Assembly: GCF_004120195.1 (NCBI RefSeq)
Contig: NZ_SCHN01000006.1
Coordinates: 248,001-312,000, forward strand
DNA from: Enterovibrio baiacu
Lineage (GTDB): Bacteria; Pseudomonadota; Gammaproteobacteria; Enterobacterales; Vibrionaceae
Length of the DNA: 64,000 nucleotides
Direction: 5' to 3'
The position numbers and the translations under genes were made by a program. The notes beneath the pieces were generated by a model. The model had not been told where the DNA came from. It ran no database searches and saw only the letters and a list, made by a program, of their open reading frames with translations. Positions 16,767 through 61,947 of the stretch are shown in pieces (position 1 is the first letter of the stretch; each line of letters starts with the position of its first letter).

Positions 16767-17387
16767 CTACGCGGCAGTTTTGTCCGCCAAGGTATGAAAC
16801 CCCGAGTAAATACGCGAGCCGGTGGTGAACCAACACATGGCACCGAACACACTGGCAATCAGCACGAAGTGCGTTGGGAACAGACACAACAACACGAAAC
16901 AGGCGATGGTTTCTGTGCCTTCGGTCAACCCTGTCATGTAGTAGAGCGATTTGTTTCGATACACGGGGTCTGCGATATCGCGCTTACTCGCCATAACAGC
17001 AAAAGCCAGAAAGCTACTGCCAGAGCCAATGAAGGAGAAAATCAGAAACGCCCCCGCAACGGCGTTTTGTTCGGGGTTTGCCAACACAAACCCAAACGGG
17101 ATCAGCGAATAGAACAAAAAGTCTAAGCTGATATCGAGGTAGCCACCGGCATCTGTGATGCCTTGAATACGCGCCAGTGCGCCATCCATGCCGTCACACA
17201 CACGGTTAAGCAGAATACAAACCAGCGCCAAGGTGTATTGCTCAAACGCCAAGGCAGGCAATGCAAAACACCCAAGGACGAAACCCGCCAGTGTGGTTTG
17301 ATTGGCGGTGACACCAAGTTTATCGACCAGCTTTGCGGTTTGCGTCAGCGGCCAGCGCACGACGTTAATGGCCATTGCATCAAGCAT
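16767..17387 (-). CDS. CDP-alcohol phosphatidyltransferase, YnjF-like
   Basis: 206 residues with about six membrane segments. The catalytic signature is CDGMDGALARIQGITDAGGYLDISLD-like: DG-xx-AR, then G-xxx-D-xxx-D, with the slightly short spacing seen in YnjF-type members. Family enzymes join a CDP-alcohol to a polar alcohol to make phospholipids; the acceptor is unknown here. The ATG overlaps the end of the ABC ATPase gene by 8 bases, with GGAG 7 bases upstream. The neighbourhood matches E. coli ynjBCD-ynjF, which supports the name. Confidence 0.85.
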   Translation of the reverse strand: MLDAMAINVVRWPLTQTAKLVDKLGVTANQTTLAGFVLGCFALPALAFEQYTLALVCILLNRVCDGMDGALARIQGITDAGGYLDISLDFLFYSLIPFGFVLANPEQNAVAGAFLIFSFIGSGSSFLAFAVMASKRDIADPVYRNKSLYYMTGLTEGTETIACFVLLCLFPTHFVLIASVFGAMCWFTTGSRIYSGFHTLADKTAA

Positions 17388-18024
17388 GAGCAGGCTCCCA
17401 TGGCGTCAGCAATCTGCTGCCTTCAGGAATGTCTTCCACATCGTGCGTCACCATCAGCGCAGGGATGTTGGCGTCTTTCAATTGCTCCACCACCCAATCG
17501 CGAAACTGCATTCGAAGGCCTTTATCCAACTTGCAGAACGGTTCGTCGAGCAAAGCCACTTTGGGCTTCGCCAACAGCATGCGTGTCAGGCTAATGCGCG
17601 CTCGTTGCCCTCCTGAAATTTGATCAGGGTAAGAATCCGCAAGTTTGGTCAACGAGATATTCTTCAGCGCCTGCATGGCGCGATGTTTGCGCTCCGCCCC
17701 TTTAATCGCGTCAGGCAAAGCAAACGCCAAGTTTTCCCACACGCAAAGATGAGGAAACAACAAATCTTCTTGGAAAAGAATGCCGACATCACGCTTATGT
17801 GCAGGTGTACCATCCAAATACTGCCCATCTAATGCGACGTTGCCGGAATAAGAAAACTCATCCGAGAGATGCCCTGCAATCACGTCAAGTAACGTCGATT
17901 TCCCGCAGCCACTTGGCCCCATTAGCGTCAAGATCTCCCCTTTTTCAACACGCATGTTCAGGGAAGAAAACAGCACCTCGCCCGTCGACTTACGGATGGC
18001 GAGGTTTTCGATACAAAGACTCAT
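17380..18024 (-). CDS. ABC transporter ATP-binding protein, YnjD-like
   Basis: 214 residues, a single ABC domain. Walker A GPSGCGKST is at about 36-44, the Q-loop is in ILFQEDLLFPHL, the signature is ISGGQRARISLTRM, and Walker B is VALLDEPF with a THD switch histidine. It is close in form to ThiQ and PotA-type import ATPases. Its start lies inside the 3' end of the permease gene (35-base overlap), so translation is coupled. With the permease and binding protein it forms an importer whose substrate is unknown; thiamine-like or sulfur compounds are possible. Confidence 0.9.
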   Translation of the reverse strand: MSLCIENLAIRKSTGEVLFSSLNMRVEKGEILTLMGPSGCGKSTLLDVIAGHLSDEFSYSGNVALDGQYLDGTPAHKRDVGILFQEDLLFPHLCVWENLAFALPDAIKGAERKHRAMQALKNISLTKLADSYPDQISGGQRARISLTRMLLAKPKVALLDEPFCKLDKGLRMQFRDWVVEQLKDANIPALMVTHDVEDIPEGSRLLTPWEPAHA

Positions 18025-19696
18025 TCGGAAGCAGACCTTTCATGGATAAACGGCGATAGCGGCTCTGTAAACGGCTCACTAAAATCGCAAAAGAGAAGAA
18101 AACTAACGGCAGCAAGGCTTGCCAAATCGCGTATATCGCTGTCACGCGGCGGTCATACCCGCTCGACAGCGCCACCGCTTCGGTCGTGATGGTGCTAATG
18201 CGCCCCGCCCCTAACACCAAGGTCGGCAGATATTGCGCCAAGCTCACGCTGATCCCGATTGCCCACGCAAACACAATGGCAGGCAGCAATATCGGCATTT
18301 TGATTTGAAACCAAACGTGGAGCGGTGATTTTCCCAAACTCAACGCGACGCGGGTTAAGCCTTCGTCATAGCTGCGCCACGGGCCATCTAACGACAAATA
18401 CACGTACGGGAATGCGAAGAAAACATGCGCCCAACACACCCAGAAAAAGTGTGCATCACTGCTGAGGTACAAGGTAGCAACCTGCATACCAAACAACACA
18501 GAAAGCTGCGGGATAAGCATAGGAATCGCGATGACATACCCCGGCACTTGAAGCTTGTAGCGCAAGCGATATTCATGGGCAACCAGCGCAAAGCACAAGG
18601 CCACCGATGCTGTGATTAAGGCGATGAACAGACTTTGAGAAACCGTACCAAGGATCGAATCCCACTCATATTCCCAGAATCGGAGGCTATAACGGCTCGG
18701 CAGTAAATCGGGGAATCGCCAGCGTTGGGCAATGCTCCAAATCACCATCAATGGCACCATGACCACACTGATAAACAAGATCGCGGAGAACACCGATTTA
18801 CCCGGCAGTGAGCAACCACTTCGGCCTGAGAATTGCCATTCTCTGAACCCTTTCGTGACCGCCCACTCCACCAGCCTTGCGAACGCAATCATCACGATCG
18901 CGATAACAAACAGCACAACCGCCCCTGCAGCCGCTCTTGGCAACAAGGCAAGATCTGGGTCGTTGAACCACTGCCACACCAACACGGCAAACGTGGGCGG
19001 ATTGGTTGGGCCAATGATTAGCGCCACATCGACGACCGACAAGCTGTACGCCATCACGGCCAACATCGGAAAACGCAGCTTGGCAAGCCATTGTGGAAAA
19101 ACGCATTTCCACCAGGTTTGTGCTTTGCTATACCCCAACGAAGCACTGACTTTCTCGCTCTGATCAACCTTGAGTTGGCGCAACACAGAAATGCTCATCA
19201 GCAGTAAAAAAGGCACTTCTTTCATCGCCAGCATCAGGATCAATCCCAATGCATACGGATCTTTCACCAGTAAGGCCAAATCACTCACGGTTTGGGCGTT
19301 GGCGTCATACCCTACAAGACTTAACAGCCTTGGCCCCATCCCCGTTGGCGCGAACAGAAACGCAAAACCAATGGCAAACGCCACGTGTGGCATCGCAAGC
19401 AAAGGAGATAACGAGATCTCTACACGACGCCAAAAGCGCGTACCCCAACTGGCCTGTAAAATAGCGAAGGTAATCAAACACGCCAGATAACTACTGGCAA
19501 TAGCGCAATACACTGTCATGCAGATCGACTGCCACACTCCCTCCCACTCGAAAACCATGGCAAAGCCTGCGAGCCCGAACTTGTGCATGCCCAACGGCGG
19601 CACATAGCCAAGTGACGACACCAACACGCCCAGCAAGCCGGGAAGCGTAGGCAAGAAGCAGCACACCGCAATGATCAGATAGAGCGCTTTTAACAT
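17990..19696 (-). CDS. Fused ABC transporter permease, YnjC-like
   Basis: 568 residues from the ATG at 19696, which has GGAAG 9 bases upstream; a GTG 30 bases earlier overlaps ynjB. It has about twelve hydrophobic segments in two homologous permease halves joined at about residue 290, as in ThiP and FbpB proteins. Each half carries an EAA-type loop (SASLGYSKAQTWWKCVFPQW and RVALSLGKSPLHVWFQIKMPIL) that contacts the ATPase. Together with the adjacent binding protein and ATPase it makes a complete importer. Confidence 0.9.
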   Translation of the reverse strand: MLKALYLIIAVCCFLPTLPGLLGVLVSSLGYVPPLGMHKFGLAGFAMVFEWEGVWQSICMTVYCAIASSYLACLITFAILQASWGTRFWRRVEISLSPLLAMPHVAFAIGFAFLFAPTGMGPRLLSLVGYDANAQTVSDLALLVKDPYALGLILMLAMKEVPFLLLMSISVLRQLKVDQSEKVSASLGYSKAQTWWKCVFPQWLAKLRFPMLAVMAYSLSVVDVALIIGPTNPPTFAVLVWQWFNDPDLALLPRAAAGAVVLFVIAIVMIAFARLVEWAVTKGFREWQFSGRSGCSLPGKSVFSAILFISVVMVPLMVIWSIAQRWRFPDLLPSRYSLRFWEYEWDSILGTVSQSLFIALITASVALCFALVAHEYRLRYKLQVPGYVIAIPMLIPQLSVLFGMQVATLYLSSDAHFFWVCWAHVFFAFPYVYLSLDGPWRSYDEGLTRVALSLGKSPLHVWFQIKMPILLPAIVFAWAIGISVSLAQYLPTLVLGAGRISTITTEAVALSSGYDRRVTAIYAIWQALLPLVFFSFAILVSRLQSRYRRLSMKGLLPNESLYRKPRHP

Positions 19697-19701
19697 GAGA
19701 T

Positions 19702-20856
19702 TTAGCTTCCGTAGCGTTGTAGCCACGCTTTTTCGAGCGCGCTTTGCCAGCTTGGGTGCGGCTCAGCGACCGCTGTAAACGGGGTGTTCTCTTTGGCTGA
19801 ACCGGACAAATGTGTGTCTTTTAGCACCGCCGGATCGCCCCACACATCCAGGTCACCTTTGCGTGATTGCGCGTGAGGACTCAGCAAGAAATTGATGGCG
19901 ACGAGCGCCCCTTCTTTGGCGTTCGCATTCCAAGGCACGGTCAAATAGTGAATGTTCGACAACGCCCCCATTTCCATCGCATAAGCTTCAGTGGTTTCTG
20001 CAAGGTTCCCTGCTGATTGCGCGGCATAGACCGCGTTCGGGTTGAACGTAATCGCTAAGTCAATCTGACCGTCATCCAGCAATTGCAGGGTTTCCGCCGT
20101 GCCTGCAGGGAATTGTTTACCGCCACGCCAAGCCACTTTGTGGAACTCATCCAAGTAATGCCAAAGCGGCGCGGTCACTTTGTCGAAATCAATGCGATCA
20201 ACAGGCTCAGACAGGCATGGCGAATCGTTCGTTAGCTCGATCAACAGCGCCTTCAAGAAGCTGGTGCCGTGGAATTCAGGAGGACGCGGGTAGCTCAAAC
20301 GGTTTGGATTGCGTTTGGCGTAATTCAGCATGTCACCAAAGGTGCGCGGCGGCGTGCTCAGGGTTTCTTTGTCATAAATAAACACCAGTTGGCTCAAGCC
20401 CCACGGTGCTTCCATGCCGTCTGTCGGTTCAGAGAAATCGACAGTCACAGGCAGGTTTTGATCCACCAGCGACCAATGCGGCAATTGCTGTGCAAAGCTG
20501 CCCATCAATAACTGATTTTCTTTGAGTGATTTAAAGTTCTCACCGTTGATCCATACCAAATCAACGCTACCGCCAGTGGTTTTCCCCGCGGCTTTCTCAG
20601 CAATCAATCGCGTGGTGGTTTCGGAAATGTCCGTCACCTTTACATGATGAAGATTGATGTTGTGACGACGTTGCAGTTCCTTCCCCGCCCATTGGATGTA
20701 ACGGTTAATTTCCTGATTGCCGCCCCATGCATGAAAGTACACATCTTGGCCTTGTGCCTTCACTTCGACCTGCGACCAATCGCTGAGATCTGGCGCTGAC
20801 GCAAACACCGCGAAAGACGCGATCAACAAAGCCATCGCTGAGAACAGAGTTTTCAT
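19702..20856 (-). CDS. ABC transporter substrate-binding protein, YnjB-like
   Basis: 384 residues from the ATG at 20856, giving a clean signal peptide (MKTLFSAMALLIASFAVFASA). The body is a type II periplasmic binding fold (FHAWGGNQEINRYIQWAGKEL..., GSVDLVWINGENFKSLKENQLL, QLVFIYDKE), as in YnjB and the ThiB/spermidine-binding groups. It is first in the ynjBCDF-like unit. A terminator separates it from the TVP38 gene upstream, so it probably has its own promoter. The ligand cannot be told from the sequence. Confidence 0.88.
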   Translation of the reverse strand: MKTLFSAMALLIASFAVFASAPDLSDWSQVEVKAQGQDVYFHAWGGNQEINRYIQWAGKELQRRHNINLHHVKVTDISETTTRLIAEKAAGKTTGGSVDLVWINGENFKSLKENQLLMGSFAQQLPHWSLVDQNLPVTVDFSEPTDGMEAPWGLSQLVFIYDKETLSTPPRTFGDMLNYAKRNPNRLSYPRPPEFHGTSFLKALLIELTNDSPCLSEPVDRIDFDKVTAPLWHYLDEFHKVAWRGGKQFPAGTAETLQLLDDGQIDLAITFNPNAVYAAQSAGNLAETTEAYAMEMGALSNIHYLTVPWNANAKEGALVAINFLLSPHAQSRKGDLDVWGDPAVLKDTHLSGSAKENTPFTAVAEPHPSWQSALEKAWLQRYGS

Positions 20857-20933
20857 AAAAGTCTTTTTATTCTTATCGTTATTTGATGCCGGATTAACCA
20901 CTCATCGCCGCTATTTTCAGCAGCTATAAACGC

Positions 20934-20996: not shown

Positions 20997-21677
20997 TTAT
21001 TTCGCTAGCTCTGCCATGTTGATGCCTTTTTTCTTCGCGATGTACTTCGGAATCAGAGACATACCAAACAGAATAAGACCCGCACCGGCGAACTTAACCA
21101 GCAACATTGCAGACACACCGTTAGTGGCAATGTCACCCGCCATGTAAGCGAAGATGAAAGCACCCGGTGCCATGGTGATCAATGACACCAGAGCGTAAGT
21201 GCCAAGGTTCAAACTGGTTAGGCCGTACGCGTAGTTTTGTAGGCTGAACGGGAACACAGGCACAAGGCGAGTCAGGATCAGGAAGCTGGTACCGTTTTGC
21301 GCGACACCGTCATCAATCTTCTTGAAGATTGGGTTGTCACCAAACTTTTTCATGATGGTATTGCGTAGCAAAAAGCGCGCAACCACGAACGCAACAACCG
21401 CACCAAGGGTTGCAGAGAACAATGCCAATACGCCGCCTTTGATTGGGCCAAACACAATGCCAGCCACAATGGTGAACGCACTGCCAGGCAGCAAGAACAC
21501 ACACGCAAAAACAAACGCCGCAACAAACACTACGTAACCCATCGCGCCAAAGCTTGCGATCCACGCTTGAAGGCTCTTGATGTCGGTAATGATCTCAAGA
21601 ATACCCGTTTGTTTTGCCACAAATAGCGCCAGCGCTACTGCAAGAATCGCCACACCAATTTTTAGAAATTTCATCAA
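20997..21677 (-). CDS. TVP38/TMEM64 (VTT/DedA-like) membrane protein
   Basis: 226 residues, five or six membrane segments, starting with two adjacent ATG codons. The family core FLLPGSAFTIVAGIVFGPIKGGVLALFSATLGAVVAFVVARF and the later RLVPVFPFSLQNYAYGLT are clear; these are the re-entrant-loop signatures of VTT proteins. Relatives flip lipids or carry ions, and several sit beside mercury, selenium or sulfur redox genes. It is last in the unit rhodanese-flavoprotein-CCG protein-TVP38, and a terminator follows. Confidence 0.88.
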   Translation of the reverse strand: MMKFLKIGVAILAVALALFVAKQTGILEIITDIKSLQAWIASFGAMGYVVFVAAFVFACVFLLPGSAFTIVAGIVFGPIKGGVLALFSATLGAVVAFVVARFLLRNTIMKKFGDNPIFKKIDDGVAQNGTSFLILTRLVPVFPFSLQNYAYGLTSLNLGTYALVSLITMAPGAFIFAYMAGDIATNGVSAMLLVKFAGAGLILFGMSLIPKYIAKKKGINMAELAK

Positions 21678-21742
21678 TTACTTCTCGAAAAATGTTCAAT
21701 GTTCTTCAATACCCCTTCACCAAACGTGCGGGGTAAAGAAAG

Positions 21743-21805
21743 TCGCCGAGTGCATTAAGCAGGAGACAACTGCGCCCGTTTTCACAAGCAACGCATACTC
21801 GGCGA
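21743..21805 (-). other. Long stem-loop between the CCG-protein and TVP38 genes
   Basis: Perfect 9-base arms TCGCCGAGT at 21743-21751 and ACTCGGCGA at 21797-21805 enclose 45 bases, with GC pairs beyond a two-base bulge. On the minus strand CTTTCTTT follows. It may attenuate transcription into the TVP38 gene or stabilise the upstream message. Confidence 0.5.
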
Positions 21806-21830
21806 TTCCTTTAATTCAGGTACTGCGCGG

Positions 21831-22601
21831 TTACACCGACATGCACTTGATCAGACCCGCCTTTGATTTGTAGCGGTTGAACCAAGCTTTCGCAGGGCTT
21901 GCTAGCACGTTCACTGGCGGCGCGGTGTCTTTCATCACAACCGGGCCAAACATCAGATCAAGAATGTGCCAAGCGTTCGTGCCCACCCCCATCATGGATG
22001 CACGGCACGCGGCGCAGTAAACAACAACGTGGTCAGTTTCAAACTCATCAACACGGCGCTGAACAACACGCTCAGCCACATTCGGGTTCGCAGGCACCAC
22101 CATGCCGCCGAAACCACAGCAACGCGTGTTTTCGCGGGTGTGTTCTGGTTCAGCAGTTTTGTAACCCAGCTCATTCAAAATCCAGCGAATGCCGTCTTGA
22201 AGCTCGCTTTCGTAGCGGGTTGAACAAGAATCGTGAATGGTGAACACCACGTCACTGTCTTTTGCTTTGCCCACAAGCTCAGGTGGCAAACCGATTTTTG
22301 GCAGCAGTTTCCAAAGCGACAATGGCTTTTGCGAGCCGCCCGATTTCTTGATCATGCCGTAACAGCTTTGGCACGCCACGATCACTTCTTCGGCTTCTAG
22401 CTTGTCAAAGTCAGCTTGTAGTTGACCATAACGCTCTTTGAATTTCTCAGCTTGGCCAATCGCGGCGGTTGGCTTACCGCAACATTTTTGAACCGCACCC
22501 ATGTCTGGGAATACATTTTTCAAGTGTTTCGCGATCGCCGCGACACCTTCTGGCGAGTAGGATGGCAGGCTGCATCCTGGCATGAATACTTTATTACTCA
22601 T
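21831..22601 (-). CDS. HdrB-like CCG-domain iron-sulfur protein
   Basis: 256 residues with two complete CCG motifs: C10, C40-C41, C77-x-x-C80 and C126, C161-C162, C196-x-x-C199. In heterodisulfide reductase HdrB these ligate two noncubane [4Fe-4S] clusters that reduce disulfides. There is no signal peptide, so it is cytoplasmic. Its ATG overlaps the stop of the GltD-like flavoprotein by 4 bases, so the two are probably subunits of one complex, in which the flavoprotein passes electrons from NAD(P)H through ferredoxin clusters to this subunit. The substrate is unknown; the adjacent rhodanese suggests a persulfide, thiosulfonate or related sulfur compound. Confidence 0.88.
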   Translation of the reverse strand: MSNKVFMPGCSLPSYSPEGVAAIAKHLKNVFPDMGAVQKCCGKPTAAIGQAEKFKERYGQLQADFDKLEAEEVIVACQSCYGMIKKSGGSQKPLSLWKLLPKIGLPPELVGKAKDSDVVFTIHDSCSTRYESELQDGIRWILNELGYKTAEPEHTRENTRCCGFGGMVVPANPNVAERVVQRRVDEFETDHVVVYCAACRASMMGVGTNAWHILDLMFGPVVMKDTAPPVNVLASPAKAWFNRYKSKAGLIKCMSV

Positions 22602-24394
22602 TTTGTTGTTACCGCACGTTTAGCCATAGTGAAGAGTTTTGAGAAACCCAGTTTTTGGTGCATGTTGATCGCTTTGTGGCCTTTCATTGGTGATTCGCCA
22701 TTGTTCGCATTCACGAAATCAACGCGCGCACCTAGGAAGATTTCCTTCATTGGGTAATCTTTCGGACACACGATGGTGCACTGATCACAGGCGTTACAGG
22801 AGTAAGCCAGCAATGGGTCCATCTCTTTCTTATTGACGAAATCACCGAACAGCGTCTTCGGACAGTCGCCGAAGTCGTTCATCATGATGCACTCGCTCAT
22901 ACACAGCTTGCAGGTACACTGCAGGCAGCGCGTTGACTCTTGCTTCACTTGCTCTTGCGTGAAACCAAAATCAACCTGAGCAAAGTCGCGCTTACGCTCT
23001 TCCGCATCGCGCAGTTCGCCGTGCAGACGTGGCACGTCTACAGTGCCTTTTGGCAGAGGAATGTCTAAGCGCGATGGGTAGCTGTATTCTTCTTGGAAAT
23101 CGCGGCCTTCTTCCAAAGGTCGACCCGCGAATTGACGCTCAATGCTCATCGCCGCTTTACGGCCAAGTGCCATGGCTTCGATAACGATGTTACCGCCACA
23201 CGCATCACCCGCCACGTAAACGCCGCTCACAGAAGACGCTAGGGTGTTCTTGTCCACCACATAGCGGCCACCACGGCCCGTTTCCAATGCGCCACCAGTA
23301 ATGTCTGCAACCACCTGACCTGTCGCGAATACCACGGTATCCACTTCGATCGTGCGCGTATCATCGGCATACGTTGGAGCAAAGTTGCCCGTCTCATCAA
23401 AAATTGAAATCACGCGCTTCAGCGTAATAGAGAAGACTTTACCGTCTTTTTCTTCGATCGAGATTGGGCCCCAACCTGCGTTGAATGCCACGCCTTCTTC
23501 CAACGATTCTTCAATTTCAACATGGCTTGCTGGTAGGTTTTCCATGGCTTCAAGCGAACACTGGTGCACTTCATCTGCACCGATGCGCCATGAAGAACGT
23601 GCACAGTCCATCGCTACGTCGCCGCCGCCAATCACCATCACACGCTTACCAGCACGCGGGAACGCACGGGTTTCAGAGATTTCTTTCAGGTACTCAACCG
23701 CAGAGAACACGCCTTCCGCCTTGTGACCCGGCAGTGGAATGATTGAACCGACATGCGCACCGTGTGCAAGTACCACTGCATCGTGTGTATTACGAAGGTC
23801 TTCAAAGCTGATGTCTTTGCCGATTTCAACGCCAAACTTGGTCGTGATACCCAGCATCTCTAGGTAGCTAAATTCGAAATCAATCACGTTGCGTGGCAAG
23901 CGGTATTCTGGAATACCCACACGCATCATGCCGCCGTACACATCCAACTTTTCATAGATGGTCACGTCGTGGCCTTTACGACGAAGTTCGATCGCCGCTT
24001 GTGCACCCGCAGGGCCCGCGCCTACGATGGCAACGTGTTTGCCCGTTGGATTGAGGATCGCCAAATCCCAGTTTTCTTTGTTGTCCATCTTCTCAGCGAC
24101 GAAGCGTTTGATGCCCGCCACGCTGATCGCTTGACCATATTCCGTGTTACGACGACACGCCGCTTCACATGGGTGCGCACAAATGCGGCCCAAGGTTTGT
24201 GGCAAAAACAGTTTGCCGCGAATGGTGTCTAGCGCTTCTTGGTATTTGCCTTCACCTGCAAGGCGAACATATTGCTTCACATCAGTGTGCATTGGGCACG
24301 CGGTCTGACACGCAGGATCCGCATCACCCATACAGCCATCAACCACGTTCTGCGCAGCGTCGTATAGCTTTTGACTAAAAATTACATTGCTCAT
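22598..24394 (-). CDS. GltD-like NAD(P)H:iron-sulfur flavoprotein oxidoreductase with C-terminal ferredoxin domain
   Basis: 598 residues. Residues 15-100 are the N-terminal iron-sulfur domain of the GltD/DPYD family (C21, C29, C33, C72, C76, C80). An FAD-binding GAGPAG is at 125-130, and the NAD(P)H site follows at VIGGGDVAMD. The FAD-anchoring GVYVAGDACGG comes next. The C-terminal part adds cysteine clusters at 490-502 (CLQCTCKLCMSEC) and 533-543 (CNACDQCTIVCP), a two-cluster ferredoxin-like module. It is distinct from glutamate synthase small subunit, since no gltB is present. It is translationally coupled to the HdrB-like gene and 49 bases after the rhodanese. Confidence 0.9.
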   Translation of the reverse strand: MSNVIFSQKLYDAAQNVVDGCMGDADPACQTACPMHTDVKQYVRLAGEGKYQEALDTIRGKLFLPQTLGRICAHPCEAACRRNTEYGQAISVAGIKRFVAEKMDNKENWDLAILNPTGKHVAIVGAGPAGAQAAIELRRKGHDVTIYEKLDVYGGMMRVGIPEYRLPRNVIDFEFSYLEMLGITTKFGVEIGKDISFEDLRNTHDAVVLAHGAHVGSIIPLPGHKAEGVFSAVEYLKEISETRAFPRAGKRVMVIGGGDVAMDCARSSWRIGADEVHQCSLEAMENLPASHVEIEESLEEGVAFNAGWGPISIEEKDGKVFSITLKRVISIFDETGNFAPTYADDTRTIEVDTVVFATGQVVADITGGALETGRGGRYVVDKNTLASSVSGVYVAGDACGGNIVIEAMALGRKAAMSIERQFAGRPLEEGRDFQEEYSYPSRLDIPLPKGTVDVPRLHGELRDAEERKRDFAQVDFGFTQEQVKQESTRCLQCTCKLCMSECIMMNDFGDCPKTLFGDFVNKKEMDPLLAYSCNACDQCTIVCPKDYPMKEIFLGARVDFVNANNGESPMKGHKAINMHQKLGFSKLFTMAKRAVTTK

Positions 24395-24443
24395 TATTTT
24401 TATGATTCCAGTCTTGGTTAATTACGTACGTATGTGGCGTTGA

Positions 24444-25430
24444 TTAACTCTTGGTGCCGCTTTGCACTTTCACGTCAGCACGATTCTGCTCGTAGTGTGC
24501 AAAGCTGTATTCAATCCAAGAGCCGTCGTAGTTGTAGACGCCTTCTGCACCCAGCACTTCTTCAAGCACCATCATGGTGTGTGCAGAGCGAACGCCAGAC
24601 TGGCAATAAGCAATGACTTTCTTGCCTTTAATGATGTCGCCGTAAAGCGCAGCTAGCTCATCGGCTGATTTCAGCGTGCTGTCTTCATTGAGGGCTTTGG
24701 TCCAGTTGATGTGAACACTGCCAGGGATCGTACCTGGGCCGTATGCACCACCGACTGTGGTTGTGCCGTCGAATTCTTCTTGGCCACGGGTATCAAGGAT
24801 CACCCAATCGTTCGCTGTTTGTGCATTGAGCACCATGTCCATGGTCGCCAAACCGCTGGTTTCGGCTTCTGGGCGTGGCGCTTTATAAGAGGTTGCCGTA
24901 ACACTTGGGTTTGCGTCGCCGGTTTTCAGACCCGCACCGATCCACGCGTTCAAGCCGCCGTCAAGGTAACGAACGTTGTCATGACCCAGGTTTTGGATTT
25001 GCCAGAACAGGCGAGCAGCGTCGTGGTGAGCGTTAGCCGCATAAACCACGATGGTTGATTCTGGCGTTGCGCCAAACTTGCTCAACAGCGCTTCCATGTC
25101 TTCCACAGAATTGCGCATGCCGTCATAGCCATACACGTCTTTCGCTGCAGAATAATCGTTACGCCACATGGTGAAAGAACCAGCGATTGGCGCGTCCGGT
25201 TTCATTGGGTTAAGCGCACCGATCACCACGAGGTTCTCGTCGCTTTCCATCATTTGTTTCAGTTCTTGCGCTGATACAAACGCCTCTGGGTTGGCATATT
25301 CCGCAAACTTTTCTTGCAGAACATGATTGCTCACGTGCACCGCTTCCGCACCGAACATAGAGGTATACGCCACGTATCCCCCCGCCATCAGCGCCGCGAA
25401 AACACCCACTGCTACCGTCGATTTTTTCAT
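24444..25430 (-). CDS. Membrane-anchored or exported rhodanese (YnjE-like)
   Basis: 328 residues. The N-terminus MKKSTVAVGVFAALMAGGYVAYTSMFGA is an uncleaved anchor or signal sequence. Two rhodanese domains follow. The first lacks the catalytic cysteine (YAANAHH in the active loop). The second has the active loop CQSGVRS with its persulfide-forming Cys, a typical sulfurtransferase layout. E. coli ynjE lies in the same ynj locus as ynjBCDF, matching the wider context. It is first in the unit that continues with the flavoprotein, the CCG protein and TVP38, and is divergent from the TtrS-like sensor. It likely carries sulfane sulfur in the periplasm. Confidence 0.9.
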   Translation of the reverse strand: MKKSTVAVGVFAALMAGGYVAYTSMFGAEAVHVSNHVLQEKFAEYANPEAFVSAQELKQMMESDENLVVIGALNPMKPDAPIAGSFTMWRNDYSAAKDVYGYDGMRNSVEDMEALLSKFGATPESTIVVYAANAHHDAARLFWQIQNLGHDNVRYLDGGLNAWIGAGLKTGDANPSVTATSYKAPRPEAETSGLATMDMVLNAQTANDWVILDTRGQEEFDGTTTVGGAYGPGTIPGSVHINWTKALNEDSTLKSADELAALYGDIIKGKKVIAYCQSGVRSAHTMMVLEEVLGAEGVYNYDGSWIEYSFAHYEQNRADVKVQSGTKS

Positions 25431-25781
25431 CGAGATTATCCCAAGATTATGTATAAATTAATTCGCTCATCAGTGAGCAGAATGAAATCGTTTGTCGGGC
25501 ATGACGCAGTCGGACGGGCTTTGTTTTTTATTGTTTGTGCCGATCGGGTGAACACATCATGTTGCTACATTCTGTCGATGTGTCTGGGCGCGCGTCGCGC
25601 GAATCATGAACACATCACTGCCTTTTTTGGGCTTGTGGCACGCAGTGTGGGGAATTTTTTGTCAGCGGGGTATTGTGGTAAACCACAATATTGTCAGTAG
25701 TTTGATCTAAAACAACAACAAAAGTATGGATATCTAGGGTAAGATGCGCGGCGAAAAGCTTCCCATCACAGTGACCTCTCA
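25431..25781. promoter_or_regulatory. Divergent control region of the redox unit and the TtrS/R-like system
   Basis: 351 bases with no gene. It holds the promoters of the rhodanese unit (minus) and the sensor (plus). The main feature is the 20-base palindrome at 25670-25689. The rest is moderately AT-rich. A response-regulator site controlling both directions is plausible. Confidence 0.7.
25670..25689. promoter_or_regulatory. 20-base palindrome, candidate response-regulator operator
   Basis: TATTGTGGT-AA-ACCACAATA, a perfect inverted repeat with a 2-base centre. It lies about 90 bases before the sensor gene and 240 bases before the rhodanese gene. It is a good candidate for the binding site of the neighbouring FixJ-type regulator. 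Confidence 0.65.
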
Positions 25782-27593
25782 TTGAACAACTATCTATTAC
25801 GTAGCTCGCCGTTTTTCTGCATTAAAGCGCTCGCGATGATGCTCGTCAGTGTGTGCTGTCTTTGCAGTTGTAAAGCGCAGGCTCGCATCGTTCAGCATTA
25901 CGATGTGGGTGTGCTAGCGCTGCGTGGTGACGCGCATGCCATCTCTTCTTGGCGGCCTACCCTTGACTGGCTTGAAAAAGAAATTCCGGGGGTGACGTTT
26001 GAGCTACACCCGTATGATTTCGATGAGCTCGATGAAGCATTTAAACATAATCAACTCGATTTCTTGCTGACCAGCCCCGGCCAAGCCACCAGGATTGCGC
26101 GCCAACATCAACTCAATTGGTTAGCGACTCAGGAAACGGCGTACAGCAAGAAAACCAGTCGGTCCATCGCGTCAGTGGTCGTCGTGAGAGAAAACTCCCA
26201 CTTCACATCGCTAAAAGACATTAAACAAGCGCGTGTGGCAGCGGTATCTGAAAAAGCGTTTGGTGGTTTCATCGCGCTTCGCTACGAGCTAGAAAAGCTC
26301 GACTATTTCAACGCCTCTTTCTACAAGAAAATCAAATTCACAGGGCCACCAACGGACCAACTGATTTACGACGTGCTCGACAACAATATTGATGTTGCTG
26401 TTGTCCCCGCGTGTACCTTAGAAAACATGGCCAAAGAAGGATTGGTGGACACCTCCAGCGTGCGCGTGTTGGATGTGCAGTATCCTGATGGCTCCGTGTG
26501 CGGCGTCAGCACCCCGCTCTATCCAAATTGGACCTTCACCAAAACCGATCGCGCCACCAATGAAATCGGCAAGAAAGTGGCCCAAGCCCTGCTTACGATG
26601 CCCGAAAATGCCCCTGCAGCAATAGCGGCAAACAACATTGGCTGGACGCTGCCAGAGAGCCCGGTGGATGTAGATAACGTCTTCAAGCACCTCGACATGC
26701 ACCCCTTGCAGCAAACATGGCAAGAGAGCTTTTACAAATGGCTCGACCGCAACGAATTCCTTGCCTTCTCGACCGTGCTGATTTTGATTTTGCTGAACGT
26801 TTATCACCTATGGGTCGAATACCATTTCAAACGCAGTAAGCAAGAACTCGAACGCACTCTTTTCGCGTTGAAAGAAAAAAATGCCGTTCTCGAACACGTA
26901 CAACGCACCATGATCGTCGGCGAGCTTGGTAGCAGTATTGCGCATGAAATCAACCAGCCACTCAGTTCAATCAAAAGCTACTCCGAAGGTGTTCAACGCC
27001 GCCTTGCACAAGGGATGGACCCGAAAGATCTCACGCCAATATTGGGCAAGATTCAGCAACAAGTTGGCGCGGCGAGCGACATCATTCAGCGTCTTCGAGG
27101 CTTGATAAAACGCACGCCCACCGAGCGGGTTGTGTGTCGTCCCGTCGATTTCATCAGCGATTCGATTCAGCTTGTGGAATACGATTTCCAAGCGCTAAAC
27201 ATTGGCCTGCAATTGAGCGTAGATGGCGAACCCTTCAAGGGGGAATTTGACGTCATCGGCATGCAGCAAGTCATGTTGAACCTGCTGAAAAATGCCAAGG
27301 AAGCGTGTATTGCGTCGATGGATGTGGAAGTCATCCCAATGGTGCAAGTGGAATTGCTGTACGGCACCAATGAAATTGTCATCAAAGTGGAAGACAACGG
27401 CATCGGCCTAGCAGCCAGCGAAGAAGAAGTGCAGCAGGCCTTCTACACCACTAAAAACGACGGCTTAGGCCTTGGTTTGCCGATTTGTCGCGACGTCATC
27501 GAGGCGCATCACGGTCAATTTATGATCCAACCAAACCGCCCGCGCGGCTGTCAGGTCACCATGGTCATTCCGGTCACAAGGAGTCAGGAATAA
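25782..27593 (+). CDS. TtrS-like sensor histidine kinase with periplasmic binding domain
   Basis: 603 residues from a TTG start, with a signal-like N-terminus; an ATG at 25836 is an alternative, and neither has a good ribosome site. Residues 35-300 form a periplasmic PhnD-type binding domain (DVGVLALRGDAHAISSWRPTLDWLE, DFLLTSPGQA). One membrane segment is at about 324-345. The kinase core has phospho-acceptor His388 in SSIAHEINQPL, the N box LLKNAKEA, and the G boxes VEDNGIG and GLGLGLPI. This layout matches TtrS (tetrathionate) and ThsS (thiosulfate) sensors. The downstream partner gene follows directly. It probably senses a sulfur compound and controls the divergent redox unit. Confidence 0.85.
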   Translation: MNNYLLRSSPFFCIKALAMMLVSVCCLCSCKAQARIVQHYDVGVLALRGDAHAISSWRPTLDWLEKEIPGVTFELHPYDFDELDEAFKHNQLDFLLTSPGQATRIARQHQLNWLATQETAYSKKTSRSIASVVVVRENSHFTSLKDIKQARVAAVSEKAFGGFIALRYELEKLDYFNASFYKKIKFTGPPTDQLIYDVLDNNIDVAVVPACTLENMAKEGLVDTSSVRVLDVQYPDGSVCGVSTPLYPNWTFTKTDRATNEIGKKVAQALLTMPENAPAAIAANNIGWTLPESPVDVDNVFKHLDMHPLQQTWQESFYKWLDRNEFLAFSTVLILILLNVYHLWVEYHFKRSKQELERTLFALKEKNAVLEHVQRTMIVGELGSSIAHEINQPLSSIKSYSEGVQRRLAQGMDPKDLTPILGKIQQQVGAASDIIQRLRGLIKRTPTERVVCRPVDFISDSIQLVEYDFQALNIGLQLSVDGEPFKGEFDVIGMQQVMLNLLKNAKEACIASMDVEVIPMVQVELLYGTNEIVIKVEDNGIGLAASEEEVQQAFYTTKNDGLGLGLPICRDVIEAHHGQFMIQPNRPRGCQVTMVIPVTRSQE

Positions 27594-28205
27594 ATGCACA
27601 CACAATTCGGCCCAGTTTATGTCGTTGATGACGAAGAACCCGTTCGCGACTCCCTTGTTTTCATGCTGGAAAGCTTCGATTTGCAACTGCAGGAATTTGA
27701 TTCGGGCAAAGCCTTTTTAGAGGGCGTTGATATTTCGCAACCCGGTTGCGTGATTTTAGATAGCCGCATGCCAGAAATGCGCGGGCAAGATGTGCACGCG
27801 TTTTTGATTGAAGCACGCAGCCCATTGGCAGTGATTTTCCTAACAGGGCATGGCGATGTGCCCATGGCGGTCGATGCGCTTAAAGATGGCGCGGTCGATT
27901 TCTTCCAAAAACCTGTCGATGGAGAGCCTTTGGTTCAAGCCATCGAGAAAGCCCTCGCCTACTCGTTTAAGCGGGCAGAAGATGTGTCCATTGAAAACCG
28001 ATACGACAACCTAACAGAGCGCGAAAAAGACGTGTTGAAGTTGGTGTTGAAAGGCCAAACCAACCAGCAAATGTCGACAGCACTGTGTGTCTCGCTCCGC
28101 ACGATTGAAGTACATCGCGGCAACATGATGAAGAAGTTTGAAGCCACCAATGTCGCAGATTTAGTGCTGCGACTCAGCACCTTGGTACAACAAAACAAGC
28201 TCTGA
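27594..28205 (+). CDS. TtrR-like LuxR/FixJ-family response regulator
   Basis: 203 residues. The receiver domain (1-120) has acidic residues at 12-13, the phospho-acceptor Asp56 in CVILDSRMP, the Thr in FLTGHGD and the Lys in FFQKPVDG. The C-terminal LuxR-type helix-turn-helix is LTEREKDVLKLVLKGQTNQQMSTALCVSLRTIEVHRGNMMKKF. Its ATG follows the sensor stop without a gap, with AGGA upstream, so the pair is co-translated. It is likely to activate the divergent rhodanese/flavoprotein unit by binding the palindrome in the shared promoter region. Confidence 0.9.
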   Translation: MHTQFGPVYVVDDEEPVRDSLVFMLESFDLQLQEFDSGKAFLEGVDISQPGCVILDSRMPEMRGQDVHAFLIEARSPLAVIFLTGHGDVPMAVDALKDGAVDFFQKPVDGEPLVQAIEKALAYSFKRAEDVSIENRYDNLTEREKDVLKLVLKGQTNQQMSTALCVSLRTIEVHRGNMMKKFEATNVADLVLRLSTLVQQNKL

Positions 28206-29964: not shown

Positions 29965-29970
29965 TTGAAT

Positions 29971-32610
29971 ATGCCAATTATTAATGGAACATCAAACGTA
30001 GACCATCTCACTGGGTCAAACTCCAATGACACCCTTTATGGATTTGAGGGTGACGATACACTCTCAGGTAGCGATGGCGATGATGTCATTTATGGTGGAC
30101 AGACAGGCGTCAGAACTGAAACGATTCTTGCTGAACGAAATGAAAACAACAACTTTGATATCAGCAACCAAGATACCGTCGAAATCGATCTTAAGATGCT
30201 CAGTGAAGGTGCAGGGTTTTACAATAGCCTTGGCTACTACATCTTAGACGACAATGGACAGTTTATGAGTGCAGTTATTATTGATGATTCGTACAAGCAC
30301 CTTGCTAATCAACCTGCCTCAGAAAACGTAAATCAATGGAATGTTGAGATAGATACGCTCGGTGGTTCGCAATTAGGCTTTTTTATTGTTTTCGGCGGCT
30401 ACACATCCGGTTTCGTCGAAGGCGAGGTTGATATTACCCTTCGTGAAAACAACACAGCTCTCGTACAACAACCCCACCGCGTCGAAAAAGGCTGGGTACC
30501 CAATGACAGACCGTCCTTTTCAGACCCCTCGCTAAATGGCTGGGATTTCGAGGCTGAGCGAATTATTGACGGCGTCTCTCATTGGGAAGATTCAACCGCA
30601 GCATCTTCGCCTATCAGTCACGATTGGAACGACCTTATTATTGAAACCTCTGTTTCCTTTGAACAAGAAATTCCGATGACCGATAGCGATACCATCAATG
30701 GTGGGAATGGTAATGACACCATTTTTGGTGGCGACGACGCCGATATCATTAAAGGTGGTAGTGGCAACGATGAACTCCATGGTGATGCTGGCGCCGATAA
30801 TGTAAAAGGCGGCGATGGTGACGACGTATTGTCAGGCGAAGAAGGAAACGACAAGCTTTATGGACAAGCTGGGAATGACACCATAAATGGTGATGCTGGC
30901 GACGATGAACTGCATGGCTGGACAGGTACTGATACCTTGCAAGGTGGCGATGGCAATGATCTCTTGCTTGGTCAACAGGATGATGATTACCTCAATGGTG
31001 GCAATGGCAATGATCGCCTCTACGGAGGAACCGGCGTCGACGAGCTCGTTGGTGGTCACGGTGACGATCACCTCGACGGTGGTGAAGACGACGATAAGCT
31101 CTATGGTCAGTGGGGCAACGATACCTTGCTTGGTGTAGACGGTAATGATGAACTCCACGGCTGGTCGGGTAACGATACATTATACGGTGGCGAAGGCGAT
31201 GACCTTCTCCTTGGCCAACAAGACAACGATGAACTGTTCGGGGAAAATGGCAATGACCGTCTCTACGGTGGGTCTGGCAGTGATGAGCTAACGGGTGGTC
31301 ACGGTAACGATCACCTCGACGGTGGTGAAGACGACGATAAGCTCTATGGTCAGTGGGGCGACGATACCTTGCTTGGTGTGGACGGTAATGATGAACTCCA
31401 TGGCTGGTCGGGTAACGATACGCTATACGGCGGTGAGGGCGATGATCTACTCCTCGGTCAGCAAGACAACGATAAACTGTTCGGAGAAAATGGTAATGAC
31501 CGTCTCTACGGTGGGTCTGGCAGTGATGAACTAATGGGTGGTCACGGCAATGACCACCTCGACGGCGGAGAGGAAGACGACAAGCTCTATGGCCAAGCGG
31601 GTGATGACAACTTACTGGGAGTAGATGGCGATGACGAACTACGTGGCGGTGCAGGCAACGACACCTTGCTTGGTGGCAACGGAGCAGACCTTCTTTTTGG
31701 CGACAATGGCGATGACACCCTTGAAGGTGAACAAGGCAATGACCGACTCTTCGGCGGTGGCGGTAACGACACACTGCATGGCGGTCAAGGCAATGATGAC
31801 ATTCGTGGTGGAGAGGGTGATGACGCACTGTATGGAGAAGACGGTAACGACATTCTCCACGGTAAAGCAGGTAATGACCTCTTAGATGGCGCTGCAGGCA
31901 ACGATTTACTGTACGGAAGTTTTGGCAATAACACCTTATTGGGCGGCTCAGGTAGCGATATTTTGAGCTCGGGCCACGGCGACCAAAACCTTTTAGATGG
32001 TCAAACAGGCGCAGACATATACATTGGCGGCAATGGCACTGAAACACTGATCTTTGATCAAGATGATTTCATTGGCGCAACGCGCGAACTCGCAAATGGC
32101 CGTGTCATCAATGCCAATGTTTACAATGGCGCCTCAGGCTTTGACGTACTCGAAATATCAGGTGATGTAGAAGCTGACTTTATGGGCGATGCCTATCAAG
32201 ACATTTCTGGCGTGACGGGCAATGTCATTTCAGGTGTAGAAGCAATACTCGGCGATGAAGGCGACCAATCAGCGACCATTAACGAGAACGCTATTTATGC
32301 CCAGTCGGATGACATGAATCTTGGCAACTGGGATGGCTTTATTGCCTACTTCGGCGACGGTGACGACACATTGAATTTCAATGGTGACGATTGGACCTTT
32401 GATGCAGATGGTGAGATTAATGCGAACATCTCTCCTGAAATGATTCAACAACTTGCACTTACTGGCGAACAAGTTGACTCACTTCAAGCCTATGTATTCA
32501 CACATGATTACAACAGTAATGCGCACATCACTGTCTGGACAGATGCCGAGCATGTCACCGAGCACGGCATCGATGTCAACACACAGAAAGATTCATTCTT
32601 CGTGAACTAA
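29971..32610 (+). CDS. RTX-type calcium-binding repeat protein
   Basis: 879 residues from the ATG at 29971 with GGA upstream (TTG at 29965 is an alternative). No N-terminal signal peptide, as expected for type I secretion. A few GGxGxD nonapeptides occur at the N-terminus. Residues 55-220 form a non-repeat, jelly-roll-like segment. Residues 235-680 hold about 45 nonapeptides (GGxGND-x-L-x), each pair of which binds Ca2+ outside the cell. The C-terminal 200 residues are an acidic module ending in DSFFVN, probably with the secretion signal. No catalytic motif was found. No type I exporter is nearby, so the exporter must be elsewhere. It is likely an adhesin, biofilm matrix or S-layer-type protein. 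Confidence 0.88.
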   Translation: MPIINGTSNVDHLTGSNSNDTLYGFEGDDTLSGSDGDDVIYGGQTGVRTETILAERNENNNFDISNQDTVEIDLKMLSEGAGFYNSLGYYILDDNGQFMSAVIIDDSYKHLANQPASENVNQWNVEIDTLGGSQLGFFIVFGGYTSGFVEGEVDITLRENNTALVQQPHRVEKGWVPNDRPSFSDPSLNGWDFEAERIIDGVSHWEDSTAASSPISHDWNDLIIETSVSFEQEIPMTDSDTINGGNGNDTIFGGDDADIIKGGSGNDELHGDAGADNVKGGDGDDVLSGEEGNDKLYGQAGNDTINGDAGDDELHGWTGTDTLQGGDGNDLLLGQQDDDYLNGGNGNDRLYGGTGVDELVGGHGDDHLDGGEDDDKLYGQWGNDTLLGVDGNDELHGWSGNDTLYGGEGDDLLLGQQDNDELFGENGNDRLYGGSGSDELTGGHGNDHLDGGEDDDKLYGQWGDDTLLGVDGNDELHGWSGNDTLYGGEGDDLLLGQQDNDKLFGENGNDRLYGGSGSDELMGGHGNDHLDGGEEDDKLYGQAGDDNLLGVDGDDELRGGAGNDTLLGGNGADLLFGDNGDDTLEGEQGNDRLFGGGGNDTLHGGQGNDDIRGGEGDDALYGEDGNDILHGKAGNDLLDGAAGNDLLYGSFGNNTLLGGSGSDILSSGHGDQNLLDGQTGADIYIGGNGTETLIFDQDDFIGATRELANGRVINANVYNGASGFDVLEISGDVEADFMGDAYQDISGVTGNVISGVEAILGDEGDQSATINENAIYAQSDDMNLGNWDGFIAYFGDGDDTLNFNGDDWTFDADGEINANISPEMIQQLALTGEQVDSLQAYVFTHDYNSNAHITVWTDAEHVTEHGIDVNTQKDSFFVN
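30838..31809 (+). repeat. Tandem 243-bp repeats in the RTX gene
   Basis: A unit of 243 bases (81 residues, nine nonapeptides) recurs at 30838, 31081, 31324 and 31567. The units at 31081 and 31324 are nearly identical at the DNA level, including silent sites; the outer ones have diverged. This indicates recent internal duplication. Confidence 0.85.
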
Positions 32611-60640: not shown

Positions 60641-61947
60641 AATTTGAAGTCGGCGAGGTCGCCCTCGTTTTCATCTAACTCAAGCTCAACGTCAGAGGGT
60701 TTCTCTTCTTCAATTCCAACCGATGAAACTAGGTTGTTCCAGCTTATTGTTGGATTTTGATCGATTACCGCAAGCATATCCAAAAAAGCTTTTATAGTGT
60801 TGCGTGGAGTTCGAAAGTAAGCGTCTCCAATAGTCTGACTGCAATGTTTTAGAAATGCCATTAAGGATTCGTCAGGAACAAGATATTTGCTTTCATCACC
60901 TTCGGCATAAACGTGACGCAAATTTTTAAGGAGTATATAAAGCTCTTCCGGGGTCAAGCTTGCAAGGTGCAGTGCTGGAGATGAGTAATCGATAAGGCCT
61001 GCTCGCTTCGCAAAGCTATTACCCGCAAGTCTGGACTGAAGGGCTTCATAACTATAAAGACCTTTCCTAGGATCAAGCAGAAATTCAGGCGTTCCACCAA
61101 GTAAAAAGCCTAAATACTCGGTAGTGCCTTGTAGACAGTCGTTGAGAATTCGTAATATCTGTTCATAGTTAGAAGTCCTGGCTGCTGTGTTATTCAACTT
61201 ATACAGATTTACCATTTCATCAAGGTTAACGAGCAACCCCTGATATCCCGCTTGGCGAACGAATAGACTCATTATTTTGAGTGCATCATAAAAAGACGTA
61301 TCTGAAATTATTGTTCTAACGCCTAAATCTTTGCGAGCGTCCGTTTTAGTTGAGTATTCAGCGCGAAGCCATTTTATAGCATTAGCTTTTTGTGTGTCAT
61401 TGTCTTGTTCATGTCCAATCCAATAAGCCTCGATGACTTTGGCGAAGTCATATCCACCAACAAGATCAGAAATTGAAGATAGTTTTTCATGAATAACTGT
61501 ATTGATGATTTTTCCAGTAGTATCGGCTTCCTTTCTCACTTCGGTGATAAACTTTTCAACCACACTGGTTAGCGCATTTCCATCTGGTTTATTGCGCGTG
61601 GACATATTGCGCATTAACTCTGAGTATAGATTTCTGGCTTGCCCAGCAGATGCATGCATTCGCCTATCTGGAGACAAATCAGCATTAACAGTTACCAACT
61701 TTCTTTCTAAAGCAATAGCTCGAACAACACTCATAAAAAATGTTTTGCCTGAGCCATATTCGCCAATAATAAGCCTAAAGGCTGAGCCTCCATCGGAGAT
61801 CCGTTCAATATCTTGAAGAAGTGCTTTTAGTTCGTTAACGCGACCAACTTGAATATGCTGAATCCCAACTTTTGGAGTTACACCTGATTTCAGCGATTGG
61901 ATAATTGCATCTCTTTCTTTTGCACGTATTTTTTTTGCAACCATCAT
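60637..61947 (-). CDS. sngB: BrxC/BrxD-like P-loop ATPase, SngB-like (Shango system)
   Basis: 436 residues. It has the DUF2791-type AAA-like ATPase seen in BREX systems. Walker A is GEYGSGKT at 62-69, and Walker B is LLVNLDE at 238-244. The C-terminal acidic tail (EEEKPSDVELELDENEGDLADFKL) is unusual. Two adjacent ATG codons follow directly on the TerB gene stop, with AAGG upstream; it overlaps the helicase gene by 4 bases. It is likely to couple sensing by the TerB protein to the helicase. Confidence 0.82.
   Translation of the reverse strand: MMVAKKIRAKERDAIIQSLKSGVTPKVGIQHIQVGRVNELKALLQDIERISDGGSAFRLIIGEYGSGKTFFMSVVRAIALERKLVTVNADLSPDRRMHASAGQARNLYSELMRNMSTRNKPDGNALTSVVEKFITEVRKEADTTGKIINTVIHEKLSSISDLVGGYDFAKVIEAYWIGHEQDNDTQKANAIKWLRAEYSTKTDARKDLGVRTIISDTSFYDALKIMSLFVRQAGYQGLLVNLDEMVNLYKLNNTAARTSNYEQILRILNDCLQGTTEYLGFLLGGTPEFLLDPRKGLYSYEALQSRLAGNSFAKRAGLIDYSSPALHLASLTPEELYILLKNLRHVYAEGDESKYLVPDESLMAFLKHCSQTIGDAYFRTPRNTIKAFLDMLAVIDQNPTISWNNLVSSVGIEEEKPSDVELELDENEGDLADFKL

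Follow-up and report, generated by a model that had tools for sequence, protein, structure and literature searches.

A TtrS/TtrR-like two-component pair divergent from a rhodanese, flavoprotein and HdrB-like operon in Enterovibrio baiacu

Genes and proteins of the locus

The sequence analysed here, referred to as the window, is a 64,000-nucleotide stretch of the Enterovibrio baiacu genome (contig NZ_SCHN01000006.1, positions 248,001 to 312,000). It contains a sensor kinase and response regulator resembling the tetrathionate pair TtrS-TtrR, back to back with an operon for which a role in the anaerobic reduction of a sulfur compound is proposed below. A sequence-only reading had placed six features here, namely the sensor, the regulator and a divergent unit encoding a rhodanese, an iron-sulfur flavoprotein, an HdrB-like CCG protein and a TVP38 membrane protein. 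Open reading frames and profile searches of the window recovered all six where they had been placed, confirming that the gene set is real. The four named genes of the divergent unit were borne out but its extent was not: the pair (25782-28205, plus strand) faces eight minus-strand genes reaching down to 16767, in the order rhodanese, flavoprotein, CCG protein, TVP38 and homologues of ynjB, ynjC, ynjD and ynjF, which add an ABC importer and a CDP-alcohol transferase (Table 1). The four ynj homologues lie on one strand, and their ends overlap from gene to gene. An Rfam search of the window gave no match.

The rhodanese consists of two rhodanese stretches with an N-terminal hydrophobic segment (judged by eye), and its nearest solved chains are thiosulfate sulfurtransferases (3aax, 7.7e-36). 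The loop CQS(G/A)VR was present in all 12 sequences checked. Fer4_20, FAD/NAD(P) and C-terminal Fer4_17 domains were recognised in the flavoprotein, whose nearest solved chains are GltD/Nfn-type subunits. By sequence, the CCG protein had no match in the PDB at 0.01; a fold search with its model (mean pLDDT 83.6, with residues 165-171 by the second CC below 50) returned LutA first (1.2e-8) and HdrB second (1.2e-6, TM 0.60). Both cysteine sets (C10, C40/C41, C77/C80 and C126, C161/C162, C196/C199) were complete in 16 of 16 sequences, and 25 cysteines were invariant in 16/16 chosen flavoprotein and CCG sequences from three phyla; the flavoprotein of locus L025, which has a stop at codon 594, was excluded from the flavoprotein alignment. 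Profiles and cysteine sets agree with the earlier description of an HdrB/HdrC-like flavoprotein system, and the second-ranked HdrB fold match is compatible with it. The window proteins share with HdrB/HdrC the two CCG sets and the HdrC-like dicluster tail, and may share the HdrB fold, but electrons would enter through a GltD/Nfn-type NAD(P)H flavoprotein rather than HdrA, and the CCG model is nearer to LutA. Assigning a substrate to the YnjB-like protein by family name was given up, as the closest solved chains, polyamine and aminoethylphosphonate binders, were weak matches (E 0.0039 to 0.0066); its model was poor (mean pLDDT 48.2) and was left out of the fold search.

Table 1. Features of the divergent locus, with positions in the window
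Feature	Position	Strand	Basis
TtrS-lineage sensor kinase: PhnD-type periplasmic sensor domain, HisKA, HATPase	25782..27593	+	profiles, tree
TtrR-like response regulator: REC and GerE/LuxR helix-turn-helix	27594..28205	+	profiles
ttrR box TTGTGG-N4-CCACAA	25673..25688	.	motif search
FNR-like site TTGATCTAAAACAA, upstream of sensor gene	25702..25715	+	motif comparison
-10-like element of rhodanese operon, CACACT	25644..25649	-	promoter comparison
Two-domain rhodanese, N-terminal export/anchor segment, active loop CQSGVRSAH	24444..25430	-	profiles, PDB, alignment
NAD(P)H iron-sulfur flavoprotein (GltD/Nfn type), C-terminal HdrC-like dicluster tail	22598..24394	-	profiles, PDB
HdrB-like CCG protein, two complete cysteine sets	21831..22601	-	profiles, alignment, model
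TVP38/VTT-domain membrane protein	20997..21677	-	profiles; 39% to E. coli YdjX
YnjB-like solute-binding protein, ABC importer	19702..20901	-	NF008633, 516 bits (cut-off 203); 46% to YnjB
YnjC-like double permease	17990..19726	-	PF00528, 23.4 bits (below 26.4 cut-off); 37% to YnjC over 198 aa
YnjD-like ATPase	17380..18024	-	profiles; 45% to YnjD
YnjF-like CDP-alcohol phosphatidyltransferase, catalytic motif	16767..17387	-	profiles; 61% to YnjF

Sensor lineage and the divergent promoter

The periplasmic sensor domain matched PF12974 (1.6e-35), and among PDB chains the sensor gave weak ArrX matches only. Its best NCBIfam match was TtrS (NF040750, 370.9 bits), and the regulator matched TtrR (NF040749, 213.8 bits), both below the curated equivalog cut-offs of 750 and 290 bits. 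A search of the window genome with the sensor domain found no other kinase at 1e-3. Relatives of the sensor were found at 59 places in 49 of the 295 genomes sampled from the order (1e-45), and 56 of these places were labelled by their neighbouring genes. The ttr labels were assigned from clustering and gene order; the PhsA label was checked by profile at one locus (NF012032, 1313.9 bits). In a tree of 65 kinases, which omits L134, where no kinase reading frame was called, the eight window-type sensors formed one clade (100/100), nested with 15 ttr-linked kinases, to which they are 39-45% identical, in a clade of 23 rows (100/99). The fork uniting the eight with the nearest ttr rows is weak (89/63), whereas the 23-row clade is firm. 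Nine phs-linked kinases grouped with three unassigned ones in a separate clade. On this tree the sensor is a member of the TtrS (tetrathionate) lineage, and membership of the ThsS group is ruled out; of the TtrS/ThsS likeness claimed from the sequence alone, only the TtrS half therefore stands. Sensor domains were compared for 31 kinases of the tree, eight window-type, 16 ttr-linked and seven phs-linked; R48, W63, V155 and F160 are common to window-type and TtrS domains and differ in phs-linked sensors.

Among known systems, a close one is TtrS-TtrR of the Vibrio parahaemolyticus ttrRS-ttrBCA-tsdBA locus (PMC11293645), which has the same sensor and regulator architecture and the same ttrR box, but the output of the window pair is not ttrBCA. 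ThsS-ThsR of Shewanella halifaxensis likewise combines a PhnD-type kinase, a FixJ-like regulator and a GTGG..CCAC operator (PMC5408782), whereas its phs-linked kinases lie in their own clade and the window genome lacks PhsA. No ttrBCA genes adjoin the pair in the window. TtrA (query from L096) had no match in the window genome at 1e-30, and the best PhsA match there reached 31% identity and 196 bits, against a PhsA cut-off of 694 bits. The earlier statement that ttrABC and phsABC are missing accordingly holds genome-wide for the catalytic subunits TtrA and PhsA, TtrB, TtrC, PhsB, PhsC and TsdA not having been searched at that scale. Among 25 genomes carrying the operon core, TtrA was matched in three, one of them in broken pieces, and was not found in 22 (1e-30). 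The broken copy belongs to Enterovibrio sp. JCM 19048 (L174-L176), whose genome also carries the rewired sensor and operon; since other genes of that assembly are also split, its stop-bearing pieces may reflect sequence quality.

A count from 2017 listed 154 distinct PhnD-type kinases, 131 of them beside a regulator, with thiosulfate or tetrathionate genes adjoining 13 and 18 of these 131 (PMC5408782); by these counts unassigned outputs are common among such kinases and merit testing. In the present tree, twelve rows (L140-L147, L127, L129, L131 and the plasmid locus L094) have neither ttr nor phs genes nearby and represent further unassigned outputs of this PhnD-type sensor family. In L094, on the Escherichia coli plasmid pTLYA-3, the kinase and its regulator lie between IS1 copies, and about 4 kb away are genes for a TorD-like chaperone and a DMSO/selenate-type reductase subunit. 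Sensor matches were found on 99 plasmid records, 61 of them from Escherichia.

The region between the sensor and rhodanese genes contains the palindrome TTGTGGTAAACCACAA, a ttrR box. Binding of V. parahaemolyticus TtrR requires a ttrR box of the form GTGG-N4-CCAC (PMC11293645), and the GTGG..CCAC operator of ThsR is close to it (PMC5408782). The box was present in 22 of 22 intergenic regions between a histidine kinase (HK) and the rhodanese, and in 34 of 36 ttr-linked loci, to which the promoter comparison was confined, the phs-linked loci being differently laid out. In the 5.37 Mb window genome there is a single exact copy of the 16-base palindrome. This uniqueness belongs to the long form, because the shorter 12-base form occurs three times within the window alone. 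Among members of the genus without the operon, no exact 16-base box was found in four genomes (G295, G299, G303 and G306), and three (G301, G310 and G311) had one each, with other spacers and elsewhere.

The candidate FNR site TTGATCTAAAACAA starts 27 bp from the GTGG start of the box. The FNR consensus is TTGAT-N4-ATCAA; the looser pattern TTGAT-N4-A-N-CAA fits 15 of the 22 kinase-rhodanese loci, and TTGATCT is kept in 17/17 aligned rows. At the 18 nearest ttr loci (L096-L113), the looser pattern recurred at the identical 27-bp offset in 16, and among the other 16 boxed ttr loci an FNR-like site was seen only at L136-L138, reading TTGAT-N4-ATCAA at 27 or 29 bp. On the rhodanese side, 21/22 promoters have a -10-like element.A.AAT at a fixed distance from the box, the exception being that of the window, which reads CACACT there. 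In 34 ttrB-side promoters,.A.AAT was found at that same offset in 28 and one base farther in six (15 and three, respectively, at the 18 near loci). Since box, FNR-like site and -10-like element share their placement with the ttr loci compared, the sensor and regulator genes and the two-way promoter between sensor and operon have the look of a single cassette, apparently inherited whole, with a changed output. It is highly probable that the operon is regulated by a TtrR-type switch under low oxygen.

The distance of about 240 bp from the box to the rhodanese start leaves a long leader, which may form a hairpin. The stem TGCTCACTGATGAGCG (rhodanese strand) lies at window positions 25464-25479, 33 nt ahead of the rhodanese start codon, and at 17 of the 22 loci the best stem lies 29-36 nt before that start, with differing sequences. 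The mean stem score of 8.25 is only slightly higher than the 6.23 (sd 2.25) of simple shuffles.

Distribution of the operon

The flavoprotein was matched in 11 of 18 genomes of the host group Enterovibrio/Grimontia in the Vibrionaceae (1e-80), in three of 295 genomes of the order (1e-110), all from the same family, and in one of 398 genomes of a phylum sample (1e-95), the window's own; the CCG protein was likewise matched in one of 398 (1e-30). Viral contigs yielded no relative of the flavoprotein. Among named genome contigs, 24 loci were recovered, 12 of which duplicate genomes already sampled and were counted once, so that with the window there are 25 distinct carriers, 22 of them Vibrionaceae. 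The carriers comprise Enterovibrio/Grimontia, two Aliivibrio, Pseudovibrio exalbescens, one Endozoicomonas, Clostridium tarantellae and several Vibrio (harveyi, owensii, jasicida, rotiferianus, metoecus, mexicanus, aestivus and two without species name).

Wherever the flavoprotein was found in Vibrionaceae, in 22 of 22 genomes, the kinase and response regulator (RR) are divergent from rhodanese, flavoprotein, CCG protein and TVP38. Rare as the flavoprotein is in the order sample (3/295), this conserved order is more than chance, and the linkage of sensor and unit drawn by the sequence-only reading holds wherever the unit was found in the family; the refuting outcome named there, that the two never co-occur in other genomes, did not arise. 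In the order sample no other family, and hence no Shewanella-like one, was positive. At 19 of the 22 loci the ynj set that comes next is complete, with four genes; one locus (L054) is cut off, and hits were split at L035, L036, L052 and L054. Outside the family, a 4.8-kb Endozoicomonas contig holds the four core genes, and the Pseudovibrio locus has them without the HK-RR pair.

The core (rhodanese, flavoprotein and CCG protein, TVP38, usually with importer and CDP-alcohol transferase) is a cross-phylum operon. On Fusobacteriota plasmids of Ilyobacter and Cetobacterium, the flavoprotein and CCG protein are fused into one, with TVP38, rhodanese(s), a binding protein, two permeases, an ATPase and a CDP-alcohol transferase as neighbours and no TtrSR in the stretches. 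In Bacillota, here the phylum of C. tarantellae, the fused protein was matched in 15 of 299 genomes (1e-110), seven of which have flavoprotein and CCG protein as separate genes. The 14 Bacillota neighbourhoods, several of which end early at contig or stretch limits, contain TVP38 in 14, a rhodanese in 13, a binding protein in 11 and a CDP-alcohol transferase in nine. Seven of the 14, with the fused form, also carry two YeeE/YedE transporter halves and a TusA match (YeeE/YedE profiles were run at L193, TusA profiles at L192 and L194). Thiosulfate import by YeeE depends on the TusA-like protein YeeD (PMC11582611). As the core does without TtrSR in both phyla, the sensor looks like a Vibrionaceae graft. 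Two CGGC-domain proteins (PF08821) were seen inside one Bacillota version of the operon (L198, 8331-9076).

A partial counterpart exists in E. coli as ydjXYZ-ynjABCD, ynjE and ynjF. TVP38, the YnjB-YnjC-YnjD importer, the rhodanese (29% identical to YnjE) and YnjF occur together in both, but the E. coli set has YdjY, YdjZ and YnjA in place of the flavoprotein and CCG protein, and no TtrSR. At 1e-3, no window operon gene matched YdjY or YnjA, and the flavoprotein and CCG protein matched nothing in the E. coli set. The E. coli operon and ynjE are activated by FNR (PMC3688515) and co-vary with yedEF and yjiLM (PMC7888660). Among the open-licence literature matches listed, there was no description of the operon or of TtrSR beside it, nor was a substrate of the E. 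coli set found described.

A different role would be the anaerobic supply of sulfur for molybdopterin or iron-sulfur clusters, as proposed for YnjE. E. coli ynjE is annotated as a molybdopterin synthase sulfurtransferase, the ynjABCDEFI genes group with suf genes in genetic interactions (PMC3930520), and the iModulon authors suggest a molybdenum/selenium link (PMC7888660). Such a supply would, on the other hand, need neither a dedicated TtrSR switch nor an NAD(P)H-HdrB reductase, the rhodanese apparently lies outside the cytoplasm, and the flavoprotein was not found in seven of the 18 genus genomes, which presumably still make molybdenum cofactor. A cofactor role is thus quite improbable.

Elsewhere in the window, positions 29965-32610 (plus strand) encode an 881-residue protein with many glycine/aspartate-rich repeats and, by eye, the look of an RTX protein. 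Three genes at 58445-63894 (minus strand) match the PADLOC proteins SngC (873 bits), SngB (610) and SngA (296), Sng being the Shango anti-phage system.

Proposed function

Comparison of sequences establishes gene content, gene order, sensor lineage, promoter likeness and the conserved cysteines. Building on these, it is proposed that the operon serves the anaerobic uptake and NAD(P)H-driven cytoplasmic S-S reduction of a sulfane-sulfur or polythionate-type compound, with a probability of about 0.5. The TtrSR switch, promoter included, seems to have moved within Vibrionaceae from ttrBCA to an older sulfur operon. In the absence of oxygen, sensed at the FNR-like site, and with a polythionate- or thiosulfate-like signal in the periplasm, the TtrR-like regulator would act on the single box and drive both its own genes and the eight-gene operon. 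The membrane-anchored rhodanese would accept or hand on sulfane sulfur outside the cytoplasm, and TVP38, the YnjBCD importer or both may carry the sulfur compound or its carrier inward. Cleavage of an S-S bond in the cytoplasm, be it of a polythionate, a persulfide or a mixed disulfide, would fall to the HdrB-like CCG protein, supplied with electrons by the NAD(P)H flavoprotein via the HdrC-like tail of the flavoprotein. The ligand, the substrate, the direction, the contacts between partners and the roles of TVP38 and YnjF we infer. The sulfur theme of the sequence-only reading gains support from the TtrS lineage of the sensor and from the YeeE/YedE and TusA genes of seven Bacillota loci, and its interpretation as a whole is partly supported. 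A narrower version is that the operon is a molybdenum-free tetrathionate (polythionate) route, in which the ttr switch was re-used as the operon does the job of TtrBCA elsewhere and by other means, with TVP38/YnjBCD taking up the compound and the HdrB-like protein splitting the S-S bond in the cytoplasm at the expense of NAD(P)H, the E. coli orphans being a reduced form of it; this is tentative and on the doubtful side.

Several points weigh against a sulfur-reducing role. The E. coli relative of the rhodanese, YnjE, shows poor transferase activity with thiosulfate and mercaptopyruvate (PMC10215317). At constant or near-constant positions of TtrS sensor domains, the window-type clade shows N98S, V103T, G130A, L133V, Y163F, F189P, S251T and A263G, and R56 of TtrS is mostly alanine; because of these alterations the ligand may have changed relative to TtrS. 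The FNR-like site of the window is imperfect (AACAA for ATCAA), its pattern fits 15 rather than all 22 loci, and it is missing in two of the 18 near and 13 of the 16 other boxed ttr loci. The window operon contains no YeeE or TusA gene. The importer is not constant: in V. metoecus (L053) the permease is the sole ynj gene found, YnjB, YnjD and YnjF not being found, YnjB was not found at L060, and the Pseudovibrio locus lacks the Ynj importer. The scheme leaves TVP38 and YnjF without an obvious task. The naming of the fused protein and the distribution of SelD in Bacillota, described below with selenium, count on the same side.

A job for TVP38 and YnjF would be found if an imported organic compound bearing an alcohol or thiol were joined to a lipid after its reduction in the cytoplasm, with importer, YnjF and TVP38 as a headgroup path and the redox part opening a disulfide. 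VTT proteins have been linked to lipid movement. YnjF is the gene best kept relative to E. coli (61%), it stands beside the importer in both Fusobacteriota loci examined, the transferase occurs in nine of the 14 Bacillota loci, and the catalytic CDP-alcohol motif was intact in five of five sequences checked. The Pseudovibrio locus, which keeps the four redox and TVP38 genes without importer or YnjF, and the YeeE/TusA association, which points toward inorganic sulfur, make this lipid route a distinctly improbable one, and the reduction of a sulfur compound is preferred to it.

Selenium enters through the Bacillota and Fusobacteriota loci. The operon might import selenite or an organic selenium compound and reduce it, either to use it or to detoxify it. 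The fused Bacillota protein of L192 passes NF045663 (pyridine nucleotide-disulfide oxidoreductase/dicluster-binding protein; 566 bits, cut-off 530), a form that NCBIfam names 'diclust_near_Sec'; both window proteins match parts of that model as separate genes, below its cut-off (242 and 209 of 530 bits). The YedE-like halves of L193 scored best against selenium YedE/FdhT, with 112 and 106 bits, below the cut-off of 350, and the Cetobacterium locus adjoins a C-GCAxxG-C-C (seleno)protein. The co-varying yedEF genes of E. coli are linked to selenium (PMC5322559, PMC7888660). SelD is present in 15/15 Bacillota positives, C. tarantellae counted, the further 14 all having it, but it was also found in 14 of 18 Bacillota negatives tested (of 284). 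SelD (TIGR00476) was not found in the window genome, nor in 23 of the 25 core-positive genomes, the two with SelD being C. tarantellae and Endozoicomonas; feeding selenium into SelD is therefore not the shared job of the core. Selenium assimilation, considered as a candidate function, is weakened by this survey, and detoxification without SelD is possible. With a sensor of tetrathionate lineage besides, a selenium role of either kind is unlikely.

For sulfur reduction itself, the direction has to be considered, since the same parts could also work as an sHdr-like system that oxidises sulfane sulfur in the cytoplasm and delivers NAD(P)H. Hdr-like parts occur also in sulfur oxidation. YeeE-like transporters and TusA are used there too (PMC11582611). 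The FNR-like site and the anaerobic-respiration sensor speak for the reductive direction, as does the presence of the core in Fusobacteriota and clostridial Bacillota. Members of these two groups are known mainly as fermenters. Reduction is favoured over oxidation, which is very unlikely.

The locus thus marks an operon without known function with a sensor of known ligand class and an apparently whole promoter, and the ttr-type sensor suggests the first inducer to try. A testable role is thereby offered for a gene set that spans phyla and for the ydjXYZ-ynjABCDEF orphans of E. coli. Capture of a promoter together with its sensor would be one step by which a respiratory regulon switches its output.

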